IMG/VR virus record: IMGVR_UViG_3300021376_003159
Coordinates: 1-51,430 of that record
Origin: a virus
Length of the DNA stretch: 51,430 nucleotides
Reading direction: 5' to 3' (one strand)
Position numbers and translations under genes: made by a program. The notes beneath the pieces are model-generated. The model saw nothing but the letters and a program-made list of their open reading frames with translations, searched no databases and was not told the DNA's origin. Numbering within the stretch: position 1 is the first letter of the stretch; the number at the start of each line of letters is the position of its first letter. Positions 8,080 through 25,731 of the stretch are shown piece after piece.

Positions 8080-8493
8080 ATGGACACAATAAATCAAAAG
8101 ATTGAAGAATACAAAGATATCCTAAGCACATTTGGCGACACCGACGACCGTTATAGATTCTTGATTAGTTTGGCTAAGAAGTCGCAGCCTTTTCCTGAGG
8201 AATTTAGACTTGAAAACTTCAAGGTCAAAGGTTGTATGAGTCAGGTATGGTTAGTTCCTCAATTAGCAAAAGGAAAAGTTTGGTTCTATAGCGATAGCGA
8301 CGCTATGATAGTCAAAGGCACCGCTACTTTGGTAAGCGACATTTATTCAGGTAACTCTGCCGAAGAAATATTAGCCAATGATAAAAATCTTATAGTAGAA
8401 CTTGATTTGGGTAACTTGCTCAGCATGAATAGGCGCAGTGGTACTTACAATATGTTGCTAATGGTAAAAGAGCATGCTAAAATGTTTATCTAG
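8080..8493 (+). CDS. sufE: SufE-like sulfur acceptor protein
   Basis: A 137 aa protein covering the whole SufE fold (bacterial SufE is about 138 aa). In SufE the active-site cysteine takes a persulfide from the cysteine desulfurase SufS and passes it to the SufBCD scaffold for Fe-S cluster assembly. Here the cysteine is present in VKGCMSQVW (Cys52), the conserved GCxSQVW loop, and the flanking FGDTDDRYRFLISLAKK helix and FYSDSDAMIVKGTATL strand match the family. No SufS or SufB gene lies nearby, so it would act on host machinery. A possible late-type element TTAAATAA lies 24 bases before the start. Family confidence is high; its use by the phage is inference. Confidence 0.9.
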   Translation: MDTINQKIEEYKDILSTFGDTDDRYRFLISLAKKSQPFPEEFRLENFKVKGCMSQVWLVPQLAKGKVWFYSDSDAMIVKGTATLVSDIYSGNSAEEILANDKNLIVELDLGNLLSMNRRSGTYNMLLMVKEHAKMFI

Positions 8494-8520: not shown

Positions 8521-8730
8521 ATGACCAAATATGTATTTGTACCTGGCTCAAATTGGAGAAATGAATATCTAGCTTGGTATGATATGACCGAAAGTGAAAA
8601 ATCGGAATGGATAAATTCCGCTAAAGTTTGGCTTTCAGCATTAGAAGAAAAATCGCCGCTAACTTATTCATTTTTAATTTCTAATTTCAGACATGGTTTG
8701 GTGACGGAAGAGAATTTGGATACACTATGA
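8521..8730 (+). CDS. small W-rich protein, paralogue A of the ATP-grasp array
   Basis: A 69 aa protein, first of four related small proteins (also 8727, 11521, 13583). The shared core here is WYDMTESEKSEWINSAKVWL (residues 19-38) followed by Y-x-F/L: the pattern is W-x-x-[LM]-[ST]-[DE]-x-[EQ]-[KR]-x-x-W-x-x-[KS]-A, predicted as two helices. This copy lacks the N-terminal ARxxY segment found in the other three. It overlaps paralogue B by 4 bases (ATGA). No known family recognised; not secreted. It lies beside a series of ATP-grasp ligase genes on the opposite strand. Confidence 0.65.
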   Translation: MTKYVFVPGSNWRNEYLAWYDMTESEKSEWINSAKVWLSALEEKSPLTYSFLISNFRHGLVTEENLDTL

Positions 8731-8987
8731 AATATGATATTGAAATGATTAGAACCATAGCTCGTTGCATGTATATAACTCCATTGGAACATATTCATAC
8801 TGGATATGACTGGCCAACGAAGCAAAGGGAATGGGAAGCTTTATCTGAAGAACAAAAACAAATATGGTATGATAAAGCTTTGGTTTGGTTAGATGATCTT
8901 AAAGAAAAAATGCCAGATGCATATGAGTTTTATATGACATATAGTATTCCTGATTTAGGTGATCGAAATCATCTTTTTAGTGATTGA
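8727..8987 (+). CDS. small W-rich protein, paralogue B of the ATP-grasp array
   Basis: An 86 aa protein coupled to paralogue A. Begins MKYDIEMIRTIARCMY; the IAR-x-x-Y N-terminus is shared with paralogues C and D. The core is WEALSEEQKQIWYDKALVWL (residues 31-50), then DAYEFY. Its 3' end overlaps the 3' end of the convergent ATP-grasp gene by 19 bases, the same geometry as paralogues C and D. The helix-rich core loosely recalls HMG-box-like or other small phage proteins, but I cannot assign it. It could be a substrate, partner or inhibitor of the neighbouring ligases. Confidence 0.7.
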   Translation: MKYDIEMIRTIARCMYITPLEHIHTGYDWPTKQREWEALSEEQKQIWYDKALVWLDDLKEKMPDAYEFYMTYSIPDLGDRNHLFSD

Positions 8988-9928
8988 TATATGTCCACTG
9001 CATGGTCAATCATATGACCAGCAAGATTGCGAAATGAACAAGCTTCAGTCATTGGAAAATTGGCCGACGGATTTATCTCACACAATTTCAATCCGTCTTT
9101 AGTTGGAAAAATGTCAACTCGACCCCATTCAATATTTAACGCATCTAATGATCTATTAATTAAATTTTGCATTTCACTAGATGCTGTTATTGGTAGCTGA
9201 ACTCTTCCTTCAGCATTTGCAAAATTTGCTTTAAATTTTTCATAGCCCGTAAATGATGGGGGTATAGCCTGCATGGTTGCTTGAATATTGCGGCCACGTA
9301 CAGCATGGGCTGTGATCATATAATTCAGATCAAGATATTCCTGTACTACCACTGTGGTATTGTGTTTCTTATTAAATGGATCTGTAGTAAGTCTGTTGTG
9401 AAAATCTTTGCTAGGTAAATGCTTTAGTAAATTACCAGCAACAGTATATAATTCGAATTCATCCTTGCAAAGGGTGACTCTTTCTGATCCTGCTGAAAAT
9501 CTCCATTTAATTACGCACGGATATCCAATATTATTTTGTATTTCATCAACAGCATTTTCTGATGAAAGGTCAACAAATATAGTTTTTGCTGTTGGTATTC
9601 CAGCTTGCTCATATTTTTTGTGTGCATTGATTTTATCAAGAGCTTCAACATGAGGTTCAATATCAGTTACAAATATACTTCCGTGCTTTCTTAAAATTCC
9701 AATTTTTTTCAGACCAAGTGGATTCCATACAGCATGTCTCATTATAATAAGGTCTGGTGGTATAATCTTTTCATTGTTAATATACACATCATCACTTACA
9801 ACTGTGCACATATACGGATTGACATGTAACGCTTCAAAACCCCTTTTGTTTAATTCATCCATAAATCGCCAAGTTTCATACCAATGACTTTTCGGTGAAG
9901 GAGAAGTGAGAAGCCAAACTCTTTTCAT
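8969..9928 (-). CDS. RimK-like ATP-grasp ligase 1
   Basis: A 319 aa protein. N-terminal pre-ATP-grasp domain beginning MKRVWLLTSPSP, then the linker AGIPTAKTIFV that precedes the ATP-grasp fold. ATP-binding lysine region is GYPCVIKWRFSAGS, followed by the adenine-hinge VVVQEYLD. The metal-binding end is WGRVDIFPTKDG and CEINPSANF, corresponding to the E-x-N triad. RimK-like enzymes join a carboxylate to an amine through an acyl-phosphate; they include S6 glutamate ligase and peptide-modifying ligases. The ATG overlaps the end of the upstream ATP-grasp gene by 4 bases. One of five paralogues, all with diverged N-terminal domains, so substrates probably differ. Confidence 0.85.
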   Translation of the reverse strand: MKRVWLLTSPSPKSHWYETWRFMDELNKRGFEALHVNPYMCTVVSDDVYINNEKIIPPDLIIMRHAVWNPLGLKKIGILRKHGSIFVTDIEPHVEALDKINAHKKYEQAGIPTAKTIFVDLSSENAVDEIQNNIGYPCVIKWRFSAGSERVTLCKDEFELYTVAGNLLKHLPSKDFHNRLTTDPFNKKHNTTVVVQEYLDLNYMITAHAVRGRNIQATMQAIPPSFTGYEKFKANFANAEGRVQLPITASSEMQNLINRSLDALNIEWGRVDIFPTKDGLKLCEINPSANFPMTEACSFRNLAGHMIDHAVDIYQSLKR

Positions 9929-10905
9929 TTAATATATCCTGAGGCATATTTTGCTATTTCAAATCCAAGATCCAAGTGGGGATTTGAAATAGATAATTGC
10001 TTAAATCCACCATTTGTATTTAATTCAATTATAATATATTTTTCTCCATCATGCATAACATCTAATGTGGCCATTGCTAGATTTAATTTTTGACATGCTA
10101 ATTCGCAAAGTTTTGCTAAATCATGCGGTATAATAAATTTTCTTCTATAAGAATTTTCTAGACGATTTGATACAAAAAAATCTGTCTCATTGATTGGGGT
10201 TCTTTGTTGAGCCGCCATAGCTTTAAAACCAACAACATGAACTCTTAGAATACCCATCCCAGATATTTTATGGTCTACATATTTTTGCGCGATTACTGAT
10301 GCCGGCCATTGAGTACCAACAGGTACTCTAACATATCCATAATCACTTTTCATATCATAAAGTATCATGCAGGCATTAAACGCATCCTCCTCATTCATAC
10401 ATTTAAAAACTGCTTGAGCATCACCTGTGCTTCTAGCTTTTATGACTAGAGGATAGCCTATCTCTATTCTCAAATCTTCCAATTGAGATTTTAAGAATTC
10501 AATTTTTTCTCGTTTAAGTGGTAAATCTATTTTCACTGTTTTAGAAAAATTAATACCTTCTCTCATAAGCATTTCAGCTTGATTCCATTTATCATGATAT
10601 TTTATATGAGAGGTGGCATTATTAATTACAATAGTACCATTGGCTTCAATATCTAAAAGAGTTTTAGCTTCAACATCAAGCCACGCTGGACAAGTATCTA
10701 TCACCAATTTTGGTAGAGGTAGATTGGGAAGATCCGTTATTCTGTATACCCCAGCGTATATTCCAAGCTTATTAAATCCACTACGAATATTCATAGGCGT
10801 CCAAATGGAAATATGAGTATCAATATTGATTGCCAATTCTTCTGCTCTCATCAATTCTTCATATTTTGCCGTATAACTTCTAGTTAATAACCAAACATCA
10901 AACAT
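9925..10905 (-). CDS. RimK-like ATP-grasp ligase 2
   Basis: A 326 aa protein from the ATG at 10905 (MFDVWLLTRSY), chosen because its beginning lines up with the other ligases; an upstream ATG at 10947 would overlap the divergent gene. ATP-grasp signatures are YPLVIKARSTGDAQ, VIAQKYVDHK, TLDVMHDGEK and ELNTNGGF. The last motif has the glutamate and asparagine needed for metal binding. A late-type element CATAAATA lies on this strand 30 bases upstream. It is coupled by a 4-base overlap to ligase 1, so the two are co-translated. More diverged than the others in the acceptor-side segment (FFVSNRLENSYRRK). Confidence 0.83.
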   Translation of the reverse strand: MFDVWLLTRSYTAKYEELMRAEELAINIDTHISIWTPMNIRSGFNKLGIYAGVYRITDLPNLPLPKLVIDTCPAWLDVEAKTLLDIEANGTIVINNATSHIKYHDKWNQAEMLMREGINFSKTVKIDLPLKREKIEFLKSQLEDLRIEIGYPLVIKARSTGDAQAVFKCMNEEDAFNACMILYDMKSDYGYVRVPVGTQWPASVIAQKYVDHKISGMGILRVHVVGFKAMAAQQRTPINETDFFVSNRLENSYRRKFIIPHDLAKLCELACQKLNLAMATLDVMHDGEKYIIIELNTNGGFKQLSISNPHLDLGFEIAKYASGYIK

Positions 10906-10934
10906 ATATAACCTCGAATAGTTTTGGAGTTTGA

Positions 10935-10942
10935 TATTTATG
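10935..10942 (-). promoter_or_regulatory. late-type promoter element for ATP-grasp 2/1
   Basis: CATAAATA read on the minus strand, 30 nt before the ATG at 10905. It resembles the T4 late promoter TATAAATA and overlaps the start codon of the divergent gene at 10940. Confidence 0.45.
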
Positions 10943-11521
10943 GACATGTCTTATTTGAGTGTTGATGCTCCAGAATTTCAATGTCTGGTGAGAAAAGAAT
11001 ATCTTTATGATCACAAATATGGTCATGGTGAATATGTATCTGGTCGGGCCGTCGCAGTTTGTTTTAGAATTGGTATTGCTCCGACATTTGATGTGCTAAT
11101 GGACAATGGTGTCTTTTGGACAAGATTGCCAATAATTGCTTTATGCTGGAAAACAGATGCTGAAAAATTACCATTACATCATCATGTGATGTGGGACTGC
11201 CATTCACAATTTGGTAATGTAAGAATTAGACCAGCATTTAAAAATATGAAAACAACTCTGCTATGTGAAGATGGAGTTTCAAGAGAAGGTAAATATTTGT
11301 TCACAGTTGAATGTGCATATCCAGATGGTAAAGCATATCCAGATCACAGAAATGTTTTGTCATTTGTAAAAACTGGACATATGTTTGAAGTCAATACTGG
11401 TCATTTTTTCATGTTTCCAAATTATAGAGTTTTATGGGGCGATAATCCAAATTTAGATAATATGCGTTATAAAATTGATAGCAAAACATATAGTGTTAGA
11501 GAATCATTGAAAGATAAGTGA
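10940..11521 (+). CDS. conserved hypothetical protein (193 aa) in the ATP-grasp array
   Basis: ATG 10940 has TTGGAG ten bases upstream; a TTG at 10931 and an ATG at 10946 are alternatives. Begins MDMSYLSVDAPEF. Rich in beta-strand-like segments with many aromatic and histidine residues (LPLHHHVMWDCHSQFG, residues 74-89). No signal peptide, no membrane helix, and I recognise no family. Its stop overlaps the start of paralogue C (TGATG), so it is co-expressed with one of the small W-rich proteins. The gene is divergent from ATP-grasp 2 with only 34 bases between start codons. It may be a tailoring or target protein of the array. Confidence 0.7.
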   Translation: MDMSYLSVDAPEFQCLVRKEYLYDHKYGHGEYVSGRAVAVCFRIGIAPTFDVLMDNGVFWTRLPIIALCWKTDAEKLPLHHHVMWDCHSQFGNVRIRPAFKNMKTTLLCEDGVSREGKYLFTVECAYPDGKAYPDHRNVLSFVKTGHMFEVNTGHFFMFPNYRVLWGDNPNLDNMRYKIDSKTYSVRESLKDK

Positions 11522-11802
11522 TGACTATATTATTAGAGGTTGCTCGGTCTCTTTATATTTTTTCCGAACCATCAAGAAGAATTGAAAATTGGCTTTATCT
11601 TCAGCATATAAATGAAGCATTTGCTGTAGACGAAAATTGGTGCAATCTATCAGATGACGAACGTCAAATTTGGTTAGATAAAGCAAAGCAGTATATGAAT
11701 GAATTGAAATTACATTTTCCTGAGGTATATGAATCCATCATGAAAAATACAATTTGTGTAAATTCTAAGCCGATGTGGTGGAAGACCGATATTTCTGCAT
11801 AA
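11521..11802 (+). CDS. small W-rich protein, paralogue C of the ATP-grasp array
   Basis: A 93 aa protein starting in the stop codon of the preceding gene (TGATG). Begins MTILLEVARSLYIF, the ARxLY segment shared with paralogue D and, more loosely, B. Core WCNLSDDERQIWLDKAKQYM, then PEVYESIM. Its C-terminus (SKPMWWKTDISA) is extra and overlaps the convergent ATP-grasp 3 gene by 38 bases. The conserved spacing of the two tryptophans (11 residues) across all four paralogues argues that this is a real family. Function unknown. Confidence 0.7.
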   Translation: MTILLEVARSLYIFSEPSRRIENWLYLQHINEAFAVDENWCNLSDDERQIWLDKAKQYMNELKLHFPEVYESIMKNTICVNSKPMWWKTDISA

Positions 11803-12739
11803 TATGATCCACTATATCTTTCGCAATATTCTCTCTACATGCAATTGATGGTATTCCAAATGCACCACTACCATTCAATTCGCATACCTTATATCCATCA
11901 TTAGTGACAAATATTTCGGCGCGGACAAAATCTAAACCTAATGCATCCAATGAAGATACAAAAATATTTGATGACTCATTTGAAGGCTTTTGTTGAATTG
12001 TCATGCCATATTTTTCAAATATATTTAGTAGAGGGCTATTTCTGTAAGTAGTTTTTTGTAAATGTGAACTCTTTCCATAGACCATTGTTGTATAAAATTT
12101 ATCTCTACCCGCACTTGTAAAAACTAACATGTATTTTGCATTTATTAATTCTTGTATCACAAATGATGTAGGTTTTGGCCGCACCTTACCCATAATCATA
12201 TCTAAAGATAATTGCATATTCTCAATTGCATATCTAAGATCATTTGGATTCATACATGTAAAAAGTCCGCCGGCACTCCAACCATAATTTGGTTTGATAA
12301 TACAAGGCCAACCTATATTTTCTTCAGCAGTTTTAATCATATTATCAATTGGCATTTTAATGTCAACACCAATTGTTTTGGGAATTGGTATATTAGCAGT
12401 CTTTAATTTATGATACATCTTTATCTTATCAGTATATTCAATTATATTATCAGGATTATTTAATATGAATGTTCCCATTGATTGTAGCTTTTTCATTTTA
12501 TGTTTCCAATAATCACCTGTCAAGAAAGTTTTTATCAATGCTATATCTGGTGCCTCAAGTAGCTCGCCCTCATATTCAAGGTAATTGCTATCATTACGTA
12601 TGATTAGACTTGGAGTATCAATAACCCTTACAATACATCCACGCTTTTCAAATTCTGTAGATAGTGTTGAATATTGATAGTGTGTTCTTAAATCTTTCCA
12701 ATTAGAAAAATAATTACCTAATATCCACACGCTAATCAT
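11765..12739 (-). CDS. RimK-like ATP-grasp ligase 3
   Basis: A 324 aa protein. Begins MISVWILGNYFSNW. A typical pre-ATP-grasp stretch ends with YTDKIKMYHKLKTANIPIPKT. Then WPCIIKPNYGWSAGG (ATP-phosphate lysine and glycine loop), FVIQELIN (hinge), VRAEIFVTNDGYKVCELNGSGAFG (metal-binding Glu-x-Asn) and a C-terminal VDHIMQKY helix. The acceptor-side segment TSAGRDKFYTTMVYG is not shared with the paralogues. Its start codon region overlaps ligase 4 by 4 bases, so 4 and 3 form a coupled pair exactly like 2 and 1. Confidence 0.85.
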   Translation of the reverse strand: MISVWILGNYFSNWKDLRTHYQYSTLSTEFEKRGCIVRVIDTPSLIIRNDSNYLEYEGELLEAPDIALIKTFLTGDYWKHKMKKLQSMGTFILNNPDNIIEYTDKIKMYHKLKTANIPIPKTIGVDIKMPIDNMIKTAEENIGWPCIIKPNYGWSAGGLFTCMNPNDLRYAIENMQLSLDMIMGKVRPKPTSFVIQELINAKYMLVFTSAGRDKFYTTMVYGKSSHLQKTTYRNSPLLNIFEKYGMTIQQKPSNESSNIFVSSLDALGLDFVRAEIFVTNDGYKVCELNGSGAFGIPSIACRENIAKDIVDHIMQKYRSSTTSA

Positions 12740-13584
12740 CTTATACTTCCTATAATATAATCCGTAATAATTTTACCCATGTTTATTTCGTGAACTTTTT
12801 CAAATCCTTGAAAACCGCCGGGTGAATTTATCTCACATATGATATAACCATCATGATCAAATAATATATCAAGTCTTGCCAATTCTAAACCAAAATGCGT
12901 AACGGCTGGTTCCACAGTTTTTCTTAGCTCATCAGTTATTGGATATGGTTTTCTTGATGATAGATGCTCTGGTTTTTTGTATGCTAAAAAGGAATTATCT
13001 CCATCTGGCGCCTTTGCGACATGCGCGCGTACTATACCATTGACCCAACCCAATGCCATATAATCACCAGAATAATTTATGTATTTTTGTGCGATCATTG
13101 TGATATCACCAAATTCTTTAGAAAATCTTCGTGCAATTATATACAATTCATTTTCATCATGACACAATTCCACACCAATACCATGTGCGCCATATCGTCT
13201 CTTTATCACACAAGGAAACCCTATTTCATCTCCAATTTTTTCCGCATACCAATTTTCAAATGGAATTGGTATTAATAGTGTCTTAGGTACTCGATAACCC
13301 ATTCTCATTAATTCTTTATATTTTTTCCATTTGTCAGAAACAATATAATGTGCATCTAATTTGTTTATGAATCTGGTGCCACTTAATTCCATCTGTTTTA
13401 GTTTTGGATAGTCGCTGCCTTTGCAATTTCTGAGAATTGCAATATCAGCGGATTTAATTTTATCTGGTGTTAAAATTTCTACATGCATATTGGCCTGTCG
13501 CAGATTATTTGCGATAGACTCCATTTCATACATTTCAGGACCAGGATTATGAATCAATGTTATCATCAAAATATATACCATCAT
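12736..13584 (-). CDS. RimK-like ATP-grasp ligase 4
   Basis: A 282 aa protein, the shortest of the five because its N-terminal domain is reduced. ATP-grasp motifs are FPCVIKRRYGAHGIGVELC, MIAQKYIN, LARLDILFDHDGY and CEINSPGGFQGFEK, the last closest to the canonical RimK/ATP-grasp ending. The annotated ATG overlaps the start codon of the divergent paralogue D; a second start (ATG at 13566) would leave a few bases between them. No ribosome binding site is obvious for either. Coupled to ligase 3 by a 4-base overlap. Confidence 0.84.
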   Translation of the reverse strand: MMVYILMITLIHNPGPEMYEMESIANNLRQANMHVEILTPDKIKSADIAILRNCKGSDYPKLKQMELSGTRFINKLDAHYIVSDKWKKYKELMRMGYRVPKTLLIPIPFENWYAEKIGDEIGFPCVIKRRYGAHGIGVELCHDENELYIIARRFSKEFGDITMIAQKYINYSGDYMALGWVNGIVRAHVAKAPDGDNSFLAYKKPEHLSSRKPYPITDELRKTVEPAVTHFGLELARLDILFDHDGYIICEINSPGGFQGFEKVHEINMGKIITDYIIGSIR

Positions 13585-13849
13585 GAATAATCAGTTAATA
13601 ATAACCATAGCCAGGTCGCTTTATTTTTCTGATGCGAACATTATGTTTGGTTGGCAAGGTTGGGCTTATAAGCAAGCGACAGAGTGGCGCAAGCTTCATG
13701 ATCTATGGGACACAATGTCAGAAAATGAAAAGACTAAATGGATAAACAAGGCTAAAATAATTTTATCCGATATTAAATCTACTCAGACTGATTTGTATGA
13801 ATTACTAGTCAATAATCAAATGGATGATGGTTTTCGTTGGTGGGCATAG
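13583..13849 (+). CDS. small W-rich protein, paralogue D of the ATP-grasp array
   Basis: An 88 aa protein beginning MNNQLIITIARSLYF, aligned with paralogues B and C. Core WDTMSENEKTKWINKAKIIL, then TDLYELL. Its ATG physically overlaps the ATG of ATP-grasp 4 on the other strand, and its end overlaps ATP-grasp 5 by 34 bases, so it is bracketed by ligases with no non-coding sequence. No clear ribosome binding site (upstream is AT-rich). Function unknown. Confidence 0.7.
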   Translation: MNNQLIITIARSLYFSDANIMFGWQGWAYKQATEWRKLHDLWDTMSENEKTKWINKAKIILSDIKSTQTDLYELLVNNQMDDGFRWWA

Positions 13850-14742
13850 ACCATCTTTTGATATAGATGATCAACTAATATATCTGATATATTTTTTAGA
13901 TGTGTCATTGTGGCCCAACTATGGGATGCTTGAGGATTGACTTCGCATACCTTATATGTACCCTCATCTATCATTATATCCATTCTTGCGGAATTAAGCT
14001 TCAAGCTTTTTAATACACCAGATGCTAAATTTTGAATTTCAAAATTGATCTTATAAGGTAAAGTTATCACATCCTTTCGCAGATTACTTTTAAATGATCG
14101 ATCATATGGATGAAACTGAACTACGGCATGATGTATATCACCAATACTGTGAACTTGAATAACAGTTTGATTAGTAACTAATTTTTGTATTATGATGGTA
14201 TCAAATAGAGTCTCAGATAATTTGTGAATTTTTGCTATCTCATTTTTGTTTTTGATTATACGATATAGATCAAATGGAGTCTCGCATATTTCAACACCTA
14301 TCTTACCATAACCGTGCATCCACTTTGCAACGCATGGCCATTCTATGGCATCAAGTATATTATCATCAAATGGTAATTTGAGATATAGTGTTTTTGGTAT
14401 GGGTATACCATCGCTTTCAAGTTTTTTAAATAATGCAATTTTATTTGACGCTTGATAATGAGCATCGATATCATTGAGAAAAACTGTACCATAAGTTTCT
14501 AATGATTTTAGATTTTGATATATGTCATTACGAATAATCATTGCTCGCAAAAATACCATATTGGGCATTTCTACCTGCATATCTTTGTATGATAGATTTG
14601 GTGCAAATTTTAGCTTAAAAAGATCAACCGCCAAATGAGTAAATCCCTTTTGGCGAATTGATGAGCCTATTTCAGCATGATCAAAATTTTCTTCTAATGG
14701 AATATCTGGATAGCTATAATTTGCTGTCCATGCTATAGTCAT
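13816..14742 (-). CDS. RimK-like ATP-grasp ligase 5
   Basis: A 308 aa protein. Begins MTIAWTANYSYPDIP. ATP-grasp motifs are WPCVAKWMHGYGKIGVEIC, IIIQKLVT, SARMDIMIDEGTYKVCEVNPQASHSW (Glu-x-Asn kept) and a final ILVDHLYQK helix. An acceptor-side histidine-rich stretch (HSIGDIHHAVVQFHPYD) is specific to this copy. It is the only ligase without a second ligase coupled upstream; instead a 24-codon ORF ends in its start codon (TAATG). Convergent overlap with paralogue D. Confidence 0.84.
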   Translation of the reverse strand: MTIAWTANYSYPDIPLEENFDHAEIGSSIRQKGFTHLAVDLFKLKFAPNLSYKDMQVEMPNMVFLRAMIIRNDIYQNLKSLETYGTVFLNDIDAHYQASNKIALFKKLESDGIPIPKTLYLKLPFDDNILDAIEWPCVAKWMHGYGKIGVEICETPFDLYRIIKNKNEIAKIHKLSETLFDTIIIQKLVTNQTVIQVHSIGDIHHAVVQFHPYDRSFKSNLRKDVITLPYKINFEIQNLASGVLKSLKLNSARMDIMIDEGTYKVCEVNPQASHSWATMTHLKNISDILVDHLYQKMVYAHQRKPSSI

Positions 14743-14820: not shown

Positions 14821-15093
14821 TTAAGCCTTAGTTTTTGGCTTGCGGCCCTTAGTCTTAGGTGCAGGCGCTGGTGCTACTGGCTTTGGTGTACGTGGCTTGC
14901 GAGCAACCTTTTCCTTCACTTCCTTGACCTCAGCCTCGACCTTCTCGACAACCTTTACAGCTTCGGCTTGAACAGCTTCAACCTTAGCCTCTACCTTCTC
15001 GACTACTTCTTTGATTTCAGCCTTAACCTCATCAAGTTTCTTCTCGGCCTCGACCCTCTTCAATCCAAGCCATACTAGAATTTTTGCAAACAT
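14821..15093 (-). CDS. lysine/alanine-rich coiled-coil protein (90 aa)
   Basis: Begins MFAKILVWLGLKR, a short hydrophobic start, then residues 15-64 are heptad-like repeats of EVK/VEA/VEKVEA, a highly charged coiled coil. The tail (residues 65-90) is ARKPRTPKPVAPAPAP and GRKPKTKA, resembling histone H1 C-terminal tails and alphaproteobacterial phasin-like or H1-like proteins. AGGAGG precedes the ATG, and a palindrome GCGATATATCGC and a late-type CATAAATG lie in the leader. It could bind DNA or act as a membrane-associated scaffold. Confidence 0.72.
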   Translation of the reverse strand: MFAKILVWLGLKRVEAEKKLDEVKAEIKEVVEKVEAKVEAVQAEAVKVVEKVEAEVKEVKEKVARKPRTPKPVAPAPAPKTKGRKPKTKA

Positions 15094-20647: not shown

Positions 20648-20787
20648 ATAAAGTTACGCCTGAGTGGATAAGGTCCATTATCCCTCATACCGTATTCAAT
20701 GCTGATCGAGAAAATTATCGCATTATCGCCGATGCGATGAAAAATTTATTGAAGGAACTTTCTCAATTGAGATCAAATGAATTCTAA
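20638..20787 (+). CDS. small hypothetical protein (49 aa)
   Basis: Begins MDINKVTPEWIRSIIPHT and ends LSQLRSNEF; mostly helical. Overlaps the previous gene by 10 bases and the radical SAM gene by 11 bases. No family recognised; support is from the tight overlaps and coding-like composition. Confidence 0.5.
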   Translation: MDINKVTPEWIRSIIPHTVFNADRENYRIIADAMKNLLKELSQLRSNEF

Positions 20788-22000
20788 ATTTGGTAATACT
20801 TCTTGTGGATTTATTTGGTCTGGTGTATCCACTGATACCATGGGTCGGTTACGCCCATGTTGCACTATAAATTCACCTCTGGTTGATAACAAAGGTGAGC
20901 CTTATAAAATAGATCGTATTGGTGATTTTGAAAGATTTTGGAAATCATCAACCATGCAAGAAATACGACAAGCTGGTCTAGAAAATAAATGGCATAAGCT
21001 ATGCTTTAAATGTCAAGAGCAGGAAGAATCTGGTTCTTTTTCTCAACGTATGTTATACAATTATCTTCTTCCTAAAGAGACCGACAATATACCAAAAATT
21101 AAGGTATTCAATCTTTTATTAAGCAATAAATGCAATATGAAATGTAGAATGTGTAGTCCAAAAAATTCACACCTTATAGGCCGTGAATCAAAGACTCATG
21201 GGCTTCAGCATATATGGGGTAATGATGTTTGGGGTAATGATCAAACATCGATGTATAGTAATCCCGTATCCATAGATGATGTGGCTATGGTCGAATTGGT
21301 TGAGGCCTATCATTCTACTATAGAAGAAATACAATTTGCTGGTGGAGAGCCATTTTTATCTGATACACAATTTTTAGTTTTGAAAAAATTAGTTGATCTT
21401 GGTGTATCTGAAAAAATTACAGTGACATACAATACGAATGGTACCATACCTCTCGATCAATATTATGATTTGTGGTCCAAATTTAAAAAGGTATCAATAT
21501 CAATTAGCTTAGAAGCAATTGGTGATTTGGCTAATTACATTAGATATCCAACCAACTGGAATACTATTAATCGGGTAATGACATCGTTAAATTCTGCATC
21601 TACCGAAATTATTCGAGTTAAAGTTAACTGTCTGGTACAGGCCTTAAATGTACTTCGAATTCATGAATTGATTGAATATTTAAGTCAATATAATAATATA
21701 TGTCCGTTACCATCATTTAGCACTCTTGTTTTACCCAAACATCAACATTTGAGAAATATTCCGCAAAAATTGAGAATAGTTTCAGCAGAAAAAATTGAAA
21801 ATTTATTATCAAAAATTTCAAGTCATAATTGGTTTATGCAATTTTCTATTGATAGAACCAAAAAAGTAATACATCACATTAAGACTGAACCTGATATCGA
21901 AGATATTAGTCAATTTATTAAATTCAATAGAACCTTAGACAAGGTTAGAAAAACTAATCTACTTGATGTGCTACCAGAATTATCTCCATATATCAGATAG
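20777..22000 (+). CDS. twitch/SPASM-like radical SAM protein
   Basis: A 407 aa protein. The 4Fe-4S/SAM motif is CNMKCRMC (Cys119, Cys123, Cys126), followed by FAGGEPF (the GGE SAM-binding motif) and TYNTNGT. Ahead of it, residues 10-79 hold five further cysteines (Cys10, 28, 29, 76, 79: CGF...RPCC...CFKC), in the manner of a permuted auxiliary-cluster 'twitch' domain. Such enzymes modify peptides, tRNA or small molecules by radical chemistry in the cytoplasm. The gene is AT-rich like the ATP-grasp array and unlike its GC-rich neighbours. Fe-S demand could link it to the phage SufE. Substrate unknown. Confidence 0.85.
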   Translation: MNSKFGNTSCGFIWSGVSTDTMGRLRPCCTINSPLVDNKGEPYKIDRIGDFERFWKSSTMQEIRQAGLENKWHKLCFKCQEQEESGSFSQRMLYNYLLPKETDNIPKIKVFNLLLSNKCNMKCRMCSPKNSHLIGRESKTHGLQHIWGNDVWGNDQTSMYSNPVSIDDVAMVELVEAYHSTIEEIQFAGGEPFLSDTQFLVLKKLVDLGVSEKITVTYNTNGTIPLDQYYDLWSKFKKVSISISLEAIGDLANYIRYPTNWNTINRVMTSLNSASTEIIRVKVNCLVQALNVLRIHELIEYLSQYNNICPLPSFSTLVLPKHQHLRNIPQKLRIVSAEKIENLLSKISSHNWFMQFSIDRTKKVIHHIKTEPDIEDISQFIKFNRTLDKVRKTNLLDVLPELSPYIR

Positions 22001-24709: not shown

Positions 24710-25374
24710 AATTTATTCATGAGTTAGTGGATCTACCTGAGCTTACCGCGGTCCAAACAGATCGCGGTAGGCTTTACAATACCCCATCTGGTGAAGCATA
24801 TCCTTCGATCACCACAGTTCTTGATGCTAGATCCGAAAAGAAAAAATTAATTATGGAATGGCGTGCTCGTGTCGGTGAGCAAGAGGCCAATCGTGTTTCC
24901 ACACAAGCTTCTCGGCGTGGCACTTCCATTCACACCATGATGGAAAAATATATTGTTGATGAGAATCCTATTAAGAATGAAATGCCCAGCAATATTGCGA
25001 TGTTCAATTCTATTCGCAGCAAGGTAGATAAGTATCTATCTCATGTCTATGCAATGGAAGCACCATTATATTCCGACAAATTGAAAATTGCTGGCCGATG
25101 TGATCTTATTGGTAAATGGGCTGGTACAGATTGCATTATCGATTTCAAAACATCAAAACGTCTCAAAGAAGAGGCTTATATTGATAACTATCTTTTGCAG
25201 GCCACGGCCTATTCTCTCATGTTTGAGGAGCTAACTGGTCGAGAAATACCAGGTATTGTCATTCTTATAGGCGTGGATGATGAGGATAAGCCTCAAATGT
25301 TTTGTCGATATCGTGACAAATATGTGGAGAAATTATGTGATGTCATACTTGAATATCACAAAGGTAACCGTTGA
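24706..25374 (+). CDS. PD-(D/E)XK exonuclease (RecB/Cas4-like nuclease fold)
   Basis: A 222 aa protein. The RecB-type helix is RRGTSIHTMMEKYI (residues 71-84) with the conserved histidine; the nuclease core is IAGRCDLIG (Asp133) and CIIDFKTSK (Asp146, Lys148), followed by YLLQATAYSLMFEEL, the QxxxY motif. Such single-domain nucleases of T4-like phages degrade or process DNA ends in replication and recombination. Coupled to PhoH by ATGA overlap. The last codons run into the tmRNA promoter. Confidence 0.85.
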   Translation: MKFIHELVDLPELTAVQTDRGRLYNTPSGEAYPSITTVLDARSEKKKLIMEWRARVGEQEANRVSTQASRRGTSIHTMMEKYIVDENPIKNEMPSNIAMFNSIRSKVDKYLSHVYAMEAPLYSDKLKIAGRCDLIGKWAGTDCIIDFKTSKRLKEEAYIDNYLLQATAYSLMFEELTGREIPGIVILIGVDDEDKPQMFCRYRDKYVEKLCDVILEYHKGNR

Positions 25375-25399
25375 CATTTTATCACAAACCCTTTATAAG
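25371..25399 (+). promoter_or_regulatory. sigma70 promoter of the tmRNA gene
   Basis: TTGACA (25371-25376), a 17-bp spacer, TATAAG (25394-25399). The -35 overlaps the stop codon of the exonuclease gene. The same hexamers and spacing recur in front of gp32. Confidence 0.82.
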
Positions 25400-25405
25400 T
25401 AGTAT

Positions 25406-25707
25406 TGTCATTGTTGATGGCGATGTAATAGATACTACGGACCGCGGGGCAGTGCCGCGCAGCTCCACCAAATTATGACCGTGACCTCTGCCCTAGGTAC
25501 GTCACGGTTTTCTCTGGGGCTGAAACAGAATCGACGGGTATGGTAAAGATTGACCGGAGATGGCGGCTAGCAGCCTAACTGCTATTGATAAGTGCCAATG
25601 ACAACGGCTTTGCCGTAGCACTCGCTGCCTAATAGGTAAGCGCGGTTTGAGGAGCACCGGGCAACAGAAGCTCCTCACCCTACTCAATGTATCTTTTTGA
25701 CTAGGGC
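25406..25707 (+). ncRNA. ssrA: permuted (two-piece) tmRNA
   Basis: The 3' acceptor part comes first: T-stem CGCGG/CCGCG with a 7-nt loop, then CAGCTCC-A-CCA ending at 25470. A 45-nt intervening segment (25471-25515) with the perfect stem ACCGTGAC/GTCACGGT follows, and then the 5' part starts GGGGCTGAAACAGAATCGACGGG (written here as GGGGCTG at 25516-25522 and GAATCGACGG). GGGGCTG pairs with CAGCTCC over 7 bp with one G-U, closing the tRNA-like acceptor stem. The tag frame GCC AAT GAC AAC ... TAA TAG (25574-25615) encodes ANDNGFAVALAA, ending in the ClpXP-type LAA. A GAGGAGC/GCTCCTC hairpin and T-run close the gene. The 5' and 3' ends are approximate. It rescues stalled ribosomes with SmpB; no smpB is in the window. 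Confidence 0.93.
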
Positions 25708-25731
25708 CACAACAGAAGGATAAACATCTTG

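Follow-up and report, generated by a model that had tools for sequence, protein, structure and literature searches.

The virus record IMGVR_UViG_3300021376_003159 of IMG/VR, a linear stretch of 51,430 bases called the window below, has T4-like genes for structure (baseplate wedge, baseplate hub/tail lysozyme, tail tube) and replication (single-strand DNA binding protein), 8 tRNA genes and 1 transfer-messenger RNA (tmRNA) gene. Between positions 8521 and 14742 lies an array of five genes for ATP-grasp ligases of the RimK type, here A to E, and four genes for small related proteins, s1 to s4, in the order s1>, s2>, <A, <B, PHROG 3704>, s3>, <C, <D, s4>, <E (arrowheads give the strand). The ligase gene pairs B/A and D/C overlap by 4 bases, and three of the small genes converge on the 3' end of a ligase gene and overlap it, by 19 nucleotides in s2/A, 38 in s3/C and 34 in s4/E. 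Ligases A, C and E each appear to belong with a small protein of their own, and the branch of the ligase family to which they belong is probably an undescribed phage protein-modification system.

A preliminary description of this locus had recognised the five minus-strand RimK-like genes and the four plus-strand small genes, and both sets were borne out: all five ligases exceed the Pfam RimK cut-off (25.3-60.1 bits), and the small genes are true paralogues, with BLAST E values of about 1e-8 to 1e-10 for most pairs within the set. They share the motif W-x-x-[LM]-[ST]-[DE]-x-[EQ]-[KR]-x-x-W, which among the 782 reading frames of the window is present in exactly s1 to s4. The starts given there for s3 (11521) and ligase B (10905) also stand. 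The repeating unit that it proposed holds for the convergent pairs s2/A, s3/C and s4/E and for the 4-base ligase overlaps, but the repeat is imperfect: s1 has neither a ligase nor the N-terminal helix, and the PHROG 3704 gene splits B from s3.

Relatives of the array were sought by DNA-motif scans of IMG/VR that started from the small proteins and took no account of the ligases. The small-protein family was found in only four distinct phages (those of the window, G002, G013 and L099), plus a record, G001, which is 99.995% identical to the window over 20 kilobases (kb) and is therefore practically the same phage. Each of the four has a small gene immediately adjoining the 3' end of a ligase gene, convergent or co-directional with it, so that the pairing first seen in the window recurs in every one of these phages. 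Among 68 loci from motif scans of viral and bacterial collections, strong small-protein homologues occurred only in L026, L030, L024 and L099, and ligases occurred only in those four records (the L024 stretch is too short, but its record, G013, has the ligase). A profile of the small family matched, over 19 phage records, G000, G001, G002 and G013 only, with no match in the single-RimK phages tested among them. The small proteins belong to no known family, and no ligase of the paired clade was found without one.

This clade emerged from a tree of 18 ligases, 7 with a small gene at the 3' end and 11 without (including B and D of the window). It unites A, C, E, the G002 counterpart of A, the plus-strand ligase of G002 and the ligases of G013 and L099, with support of 96/94 (86/88 before L099 was added); a small gene adjoins 7/7 of its ligases as compared to 0/11 of the others, and the paired state changes once on the tree. 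Distances among ligases and among their small proteins are correlated (mirror-tree r = 0.96, 7 pairs, 1/5040 permutations), partly driven by two orthologue pairs; without the orthologue duplicates r = 0.73 (5 pairs, 4/120 permutations). The pairing exceeds local duplication. On these sequence comparisons, there is good support for a dedicated relation of enzyme and partner, or enzyme and substrate, in the case of A, C and E; the duplicated system of this kind that had been proposed for the whole array is thus upheld for these three, across both gene orientations, but not for B and D, which are unpaired.

Table 1. Genes of the array at 8521-14742 of the window.
Feature	Position	Strand	Description and evidence
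s1	8521..8730	+	Small acidic helical protein, 69 aa, without N-terminal helix; no own ligase; site corresponds to ligase + small gene in G002
s2	8727..8987	+	Small protein, 86 aa, cognate of ligase A; paralogue set, G002 orthologue, AlphaFold2 model
Ligase A	8969..9928	-	RimK-type ATP-grasp, paired clade; Pfam RimK 39.6 bits; model versus RimK 5zct E 1e-21
Ligase B	9925..10905	-	RimK-type ATP-grasp, unpaired type; Pfam RimK 36.1 bits; groups with G002 ligase B, support 99/97
PHROG 3704 gene	10931..11521	+	T4-like phage family labelled 'ferredoxin', between B and s3; E 4.7e-30
s3	11521..11802	+	Small protein, 93 aa, cognate of ligase C; start codon shares bases with the stop of the gene before it (TGATG)
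Ligase C	11765..12739	-	RimK-type ATP-grasp, paired clade; Pfam RimK 25.3 bits; tree
Ligase D	12736..13584	-	RimK-type ATP-grasp, unpaired type; Pfam RimK 60.1 bits; outside paired clade; RimK GF-x-GFE loop kept
s4	13583..13849	+	Small protein, 88 aa, cognate of ligase E
Ligase E	13816..14742	-	RimK-type ATP-grasp, paired clade; Pfam RimK 34.9 bits; tree

The five ligases of the window are diverged from one another (21-30% pairwise identity), yet appear to be intact, active-looking enzymes of the RimK type. The preliminary description had noted that all five keep the ATP lysine and E-x-N, which we confirm, the metal residues being kept as well; a RimK-like ATP-grasp domain with the catalytic lysines and E-x-N is a feature of the array ligases generally, with lysines 100 and 141 of E. 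coli RimK and its metal-site positions kept in 10/10 array-type ligases (with E/D exchanges at metal-site positions in C, the G002 plus-strand ligase and the L099 ligase, and D for E of E-x-N in two ligases from outside the window). Different residues have been replaced. D187, kept in E. coli RimK and in 8/8 single-copy phage RimKs, is present in 0/10 array-type ligases, and R189 and R203, kept in all 8 of those phage RimKs, are lost in 7/7 paired ligases, which also lack the complete G-[FIL]-x-G-[FI]-E loop of RimK; ligase B retains both arginines, and the G002 B ligase R203. We take D187, R189 and R203 to line the substrate pocket. Since the ATP and metal residues are kept and conserved RimK residues replaced, these look like active ligases with a presumably altered substrate pocket.

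The AlphaFold2 model of ligase A (predicted local distance difference test, pLDDT, 84) has its best matches among solved structures in RimK (5zct, E 1e-21; 4iwx, 5zk6), in RimK complexed with RpsF and in ArgX/LysX with LysW (3vpb, 5k2m). The graspetide ligase PsnB ranks only 43rd, and the graspetide ATP-grasp models TIGR04184, 04185, 04187 and 04192 score at best 13-21 bits with array-type ligases as compared to cut-offs of 230-475, so that the graspetide membership first suggested for this locus was not sustained. Neither do the array-type ligases, at 48-93 bits, reach the 143-bit cut-off of TIGR00768, the RimK subfamily.

The small proteins (69-99 residues across the family; isoelectric point 4.75-5.69, n=7 measured) have as their conserved part a folded helical core rich in Trp, and the AlphaFold2 model of s2 shows four helices and a disordered tail (pLDDT 78). 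Between s2 and its G002 orthologue identity is 76%, with nonsynonymous and synonymous divergences (dN, dS) of 0.159 and 1.04; s2 and ligase A are under purifying selection. The s2 tail, IPDLGDRNHLF, is the same in the G002 orthologue despite synonymous base changes, although its last codons overlap the end of ligase A, an extra constraint on its conservation. Likewise GK-x-VYS is common to the G013 and L099 proteins near the C-terminus. C-terminal tails are thus conserved within ligase groups, with none common between groups, which would fit a site that each ligase alone recognises or modifies. The terminal residues themselves are D, N, A, A, L, S, M and V, with 0-2 Cys in each protein; on the absence of a shared C-terminal residue we rejected both a LysW-type carrier protein and a C-terminal tag like Pup or ubiquitin.

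A likeness of the small proteins to HMG boxes is weak but consistent: Pfam HMG_box_2 is matched by three paralogues at E 0.02-0.09, none significant, PDB profile matches are nearly all HMG boxes (best E 0.0056, weak), and the top Foldseek match is TFAM box B (E 1.8, weak). Because the proteins are acidic, ordinary DNA binding of the HMG type is unlikely and was rejected. A search of the ten array proteins against PADLOC-DB (known anti-phage defence) gave one marginal match, for s2 (E 0.0094, E2 model), and none for the other nine. A Caulobacter phage that Foldseek proposed from BFVD gave no profile match. No relatives of the small proteins emerged from an alignment scan of 84,980 bacterial and archaeal genomes, and a motif scan of the same genomes gave 25 motif matches (best profile E 2e-5), 0 of them with a ligase; tblastn searches of 50,697 phage records with s2, s4 and the small protein of G013 yielded chance matches only. 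Scans for relatives of single ligases (A, D and that of G013) returned the same records and no new ones.

The surroundings of the pair differ among the relatives. G002 and the window share long stretches of about 69-77% nucleotide identity (67-92% in short stretches) with flanking tRNA, TctC and structural genes common to both, and the G002 island holds three ligases and two small genes (identity to the window 76% for s2, 70% for ligase A and 30% for the B-type ligase). At the site of the window's SufE and s1, G002 has an additional ligase followed by a small gene; the SufE gene (8080-8493, Pfam E 2.2e-33), at the site of the G002 ligase gene, is phage-borne. G013, a different phage whose tail genes are related to those of the window, was recovered solely via a degenerate DNA motif of the small protein, and has a co-directional run of TctC, radical-SAM/SPASM, ligase, small protein and DctP. 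L099, recovered via a relaxed version of that motif, has its ligase directly upstream of the small gene in the order Hint-domain protein, ligase, small protein, unknown, radical-SAM, with genes resembling 2-oxoglutarate-Fe(II) oxygenases on both sides; its proteins are 32% (ligase), 37% (small), 53% (Hint) and 59% (radical-SAM) identical to those of G013.

With regard to these neighbours, the Hint genes of both phages (L031 10051-11046, L099 2023-2841) lie upstream of the ligase cluster and encode a Cys-rich stretch followed by the Hint (autoprocessing) domain. Solute-binding genes lie at L031 10964-11923 and 14623-15627, TctC and TRAP DctP flanking the ligase cluster of G013, and the window has two TctC-type genes in one phage (3114-4121 and 6497-7462). 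Proteins of the SPASM radical-SAM type (L031 11945-13375, L099 4851-6245, L042 5950-7308) share 46-59% identity among these phages and the Achromobacter phages 2-1 and JWF. The radical-SAM gene of the window itself (20777-22000) is of the twitch type (NF033640), lies 6 kb off and encodes a protein 22% identical to the SPASM-type protein; as it belongs to another family, a SPASM neighbour is not a general feature of the pairs.

How the pairs might work is a question for which we offer a tentative leading answer, namely that the array consists of duplicated two-gene modification units in a T4-like phage, with the small protein as acceptor. Each unit would comprise a diverged RimK-type ligase (A, C or E) and its own small acidic helical protein (s2, s3 or s4). 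The ligase would recognise the folded body of its cognate, and the acyl-phosphate chemistry of the fold would join an amino acid or short peptide to the group-specific C-terminal tail, modelled on RimK with ribosomal protein S6 and on LysX/ArgX with LysW; the tagged protein would then act on some host or virion component. Ligases B and D may be companions of another type, with the same or other targets. RimK and LysX/ArgX work on protein C-termini, RimK (the C-terminal glutamate ligase of ribosomal protein S6) on a disordered protein tail. We place the acceptor model first because the closest structural relatives of the ligase model target a small protein at its C-terminal tail and because the tails are conserved by ligase group. 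The 'protein tailing' named in the preliminary description would be compatible with the locus. A more elaborate version, in which each ligase tags an HMG-box-like small phage protein of its own, the paralogous pairs having diversified side by side and a radical-SAM enzyme adding a second modification in some phages, seems rather unlikely. Several observations weigh against the acceptor model. With the family limited to four distinct phages, the statistics draw on few independent cases, the three pairs of the window itself have a common ancestry, and long deep branches mean that the clade may be affected by artefact. The small gene lies on the strand opposite its ligase in the three window units, which speaks against simple co-transcription; s1 lacks a ligase; and the terminal residues are not conserved, leaving no common acceptor residue.

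Alternatively, the small protein might be an adaptor or activator that docks on the ligase and brings a host or phage protein (e.g., ribosomal, polymerase or virion) as acceptor. The same pairing evidence would serve, what is conserved is the Trp-rich folded core and not an acceptor residue or a variable core peptide, small auxiliary 'LPL' proteins occur in graspetide loci (PMC8939145), and RimK itself works in a tripartite complex with other Rim proteins (PMC11957791). The closest structural relatives nevertheless act directly on the small protein, and the conservation of tails within each ligase group suggests that the tail itself matters; we therefore keep the acceptor model ahead, with the adaptor, a doubtful but real possibility, close behind. 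The radical-SAM genes raise a further scenario, in which ligase, small protein and SPASM-type enzyme jointly modify a peptide or protein, such as the nearby Cys-rich Hint protein, as in pathways for ribosomally synthesized and post-translationally modified peptides (RiPPs). In G013 and L099 a stretch of about 5 kb holds a Hint protein, the ligase, the small protein and radical-SAM/SPASM-type proteins that are 59% identical, bacterial GRASP-with-SPASM systems are known (PMC8939145), and the SPASM-type neighbour suggests a multi-step modification in these two phages; the RiPP-like chemistry first envisaged gains a lead from these genes. As an account of the pairs we consider it improbable, given the different radical-SAM type of the window, the lack of a Hint protein in the window and G002 (whose contigs are incomplete) and the radical-SAM gene of Achromobacter phages, which has no small protein in the record tested. 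Least credible, and very improbable in our view, is the absence of any functional link, the genes being accessories of a variable island that are adjacent by chance or shared duplication. The island does differ between the window and G002, and overlapping convergent ends could reflect compact packing, but the same adjacency is seen in four diverged phages that differ in the surrounding genes, in both orientations and in one ligase clade only, and the profile search of the 19 records found no small protein without such a ligase.

The PHROG 3704 gene, tried as an array-specific gene, was rejected as a widespread T4-like phage protein (111 phages, mostly cyanophages) and probably does not belong to the system. 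Immediately upstream of ligase E, a gene (14821-15093) encodes a small coiled-coil-like protein rich in Lys, Glu, Ala and Val, with a basic tail of Pro, Ala and Lys. The exact T4 late promoter motif TATAAATA, considered as a clue to timing, has a single occurrence in the window and is therefore uninformative. The tmRNA (25367-25723; Rfam alpha_tmRNA 139 bits, tmRNA_permuted 100.7 bits; tag ANDNGFAVALAA) is of the permuted alphaproteobacterial type and is kept in G001 and G002; a gene of this type in a phage speaks for an alphaproteobacterial host.

Phages are already known to carry single RimK-like genes, R2K ATP-grasp ligases and amidoligase clusters; a literature search, which covered few subscription papers, found no description of ATP-grasp ligases of phages that come with a small protein family dedicated to them. 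What is new here is a candidate ATP-grasp system for protein modification whose partner family is itself new. The usual annotation of RimK-like genes in phages is 'ribosomal protein S6 glutaminyl transferase', without further study, and this locus reveals a ligase branch of its own in which each enzyme has a defined candidate partner, so that enzyme and target are testable together. If the small proteins are tagged, these phages would own an enzyme-substrate protein-tagging system whose paralogous pairs open specificity to study.

Compared with known systems, the likeness of the small proteins to HMG boxes is weak but consistent in profile and fold, without a significant match and with an acidic character. 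Phage-borne ATP-grasp genes are also found in the amidoligase/glutamine amidotransferase/ATP-grasp clusters of phiEco32 and LUZ24-like phages and in phage R2K, and have been proposed to modify host proteins or the cell wall (PMC3890496, PMC10580990, PMC4431377, PMC7824862, in their accessible text); those clusters, however, add COOH-NH2 ligase and glutamine amidotransferase genes, R2K is another ATP-grasp clade, and that text reports no small-protein partner family. Graspetide and GRASP-with-SPASM loci likewise place an ATP-grasp ligase beside a small protein, and include small auxiliary proteins (PMC8939145); in G013 and L099 a SPASM radical-SAM gene is adjacent to or near the ligase, while the window has only the twitch-type gene 6 kb off. 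The array ligases, however, are RimK-like, and their small proteins have a folded, conserved, helical body instead of a leader and a variable core bearing conserved Thr/Ser and Glu/Asp/Lys, and show no repeated core motif. In LysX/ArgX-LysW, among the best structure matches, a RimK-like ligase likewise has a small acidic protein of its own, on whose C-terminus it works, although the small proteins of the array are helical, lack a Zn-binding Cys pattern and do not end in a conserved Glu. RimK itself, with the single-copy phage 'S6 glutaminyl transferase' (PHROG 2599), shares with the array ligases the fold, the best structure matches, the ATP lysines and E-x-N; the array ligases differ from it in lacking D187 (the paired ones also R189, R203 and the full loop), in falling below the TIGR00768 cut-off, and in coming with a cognate small gene and in up to five copies.

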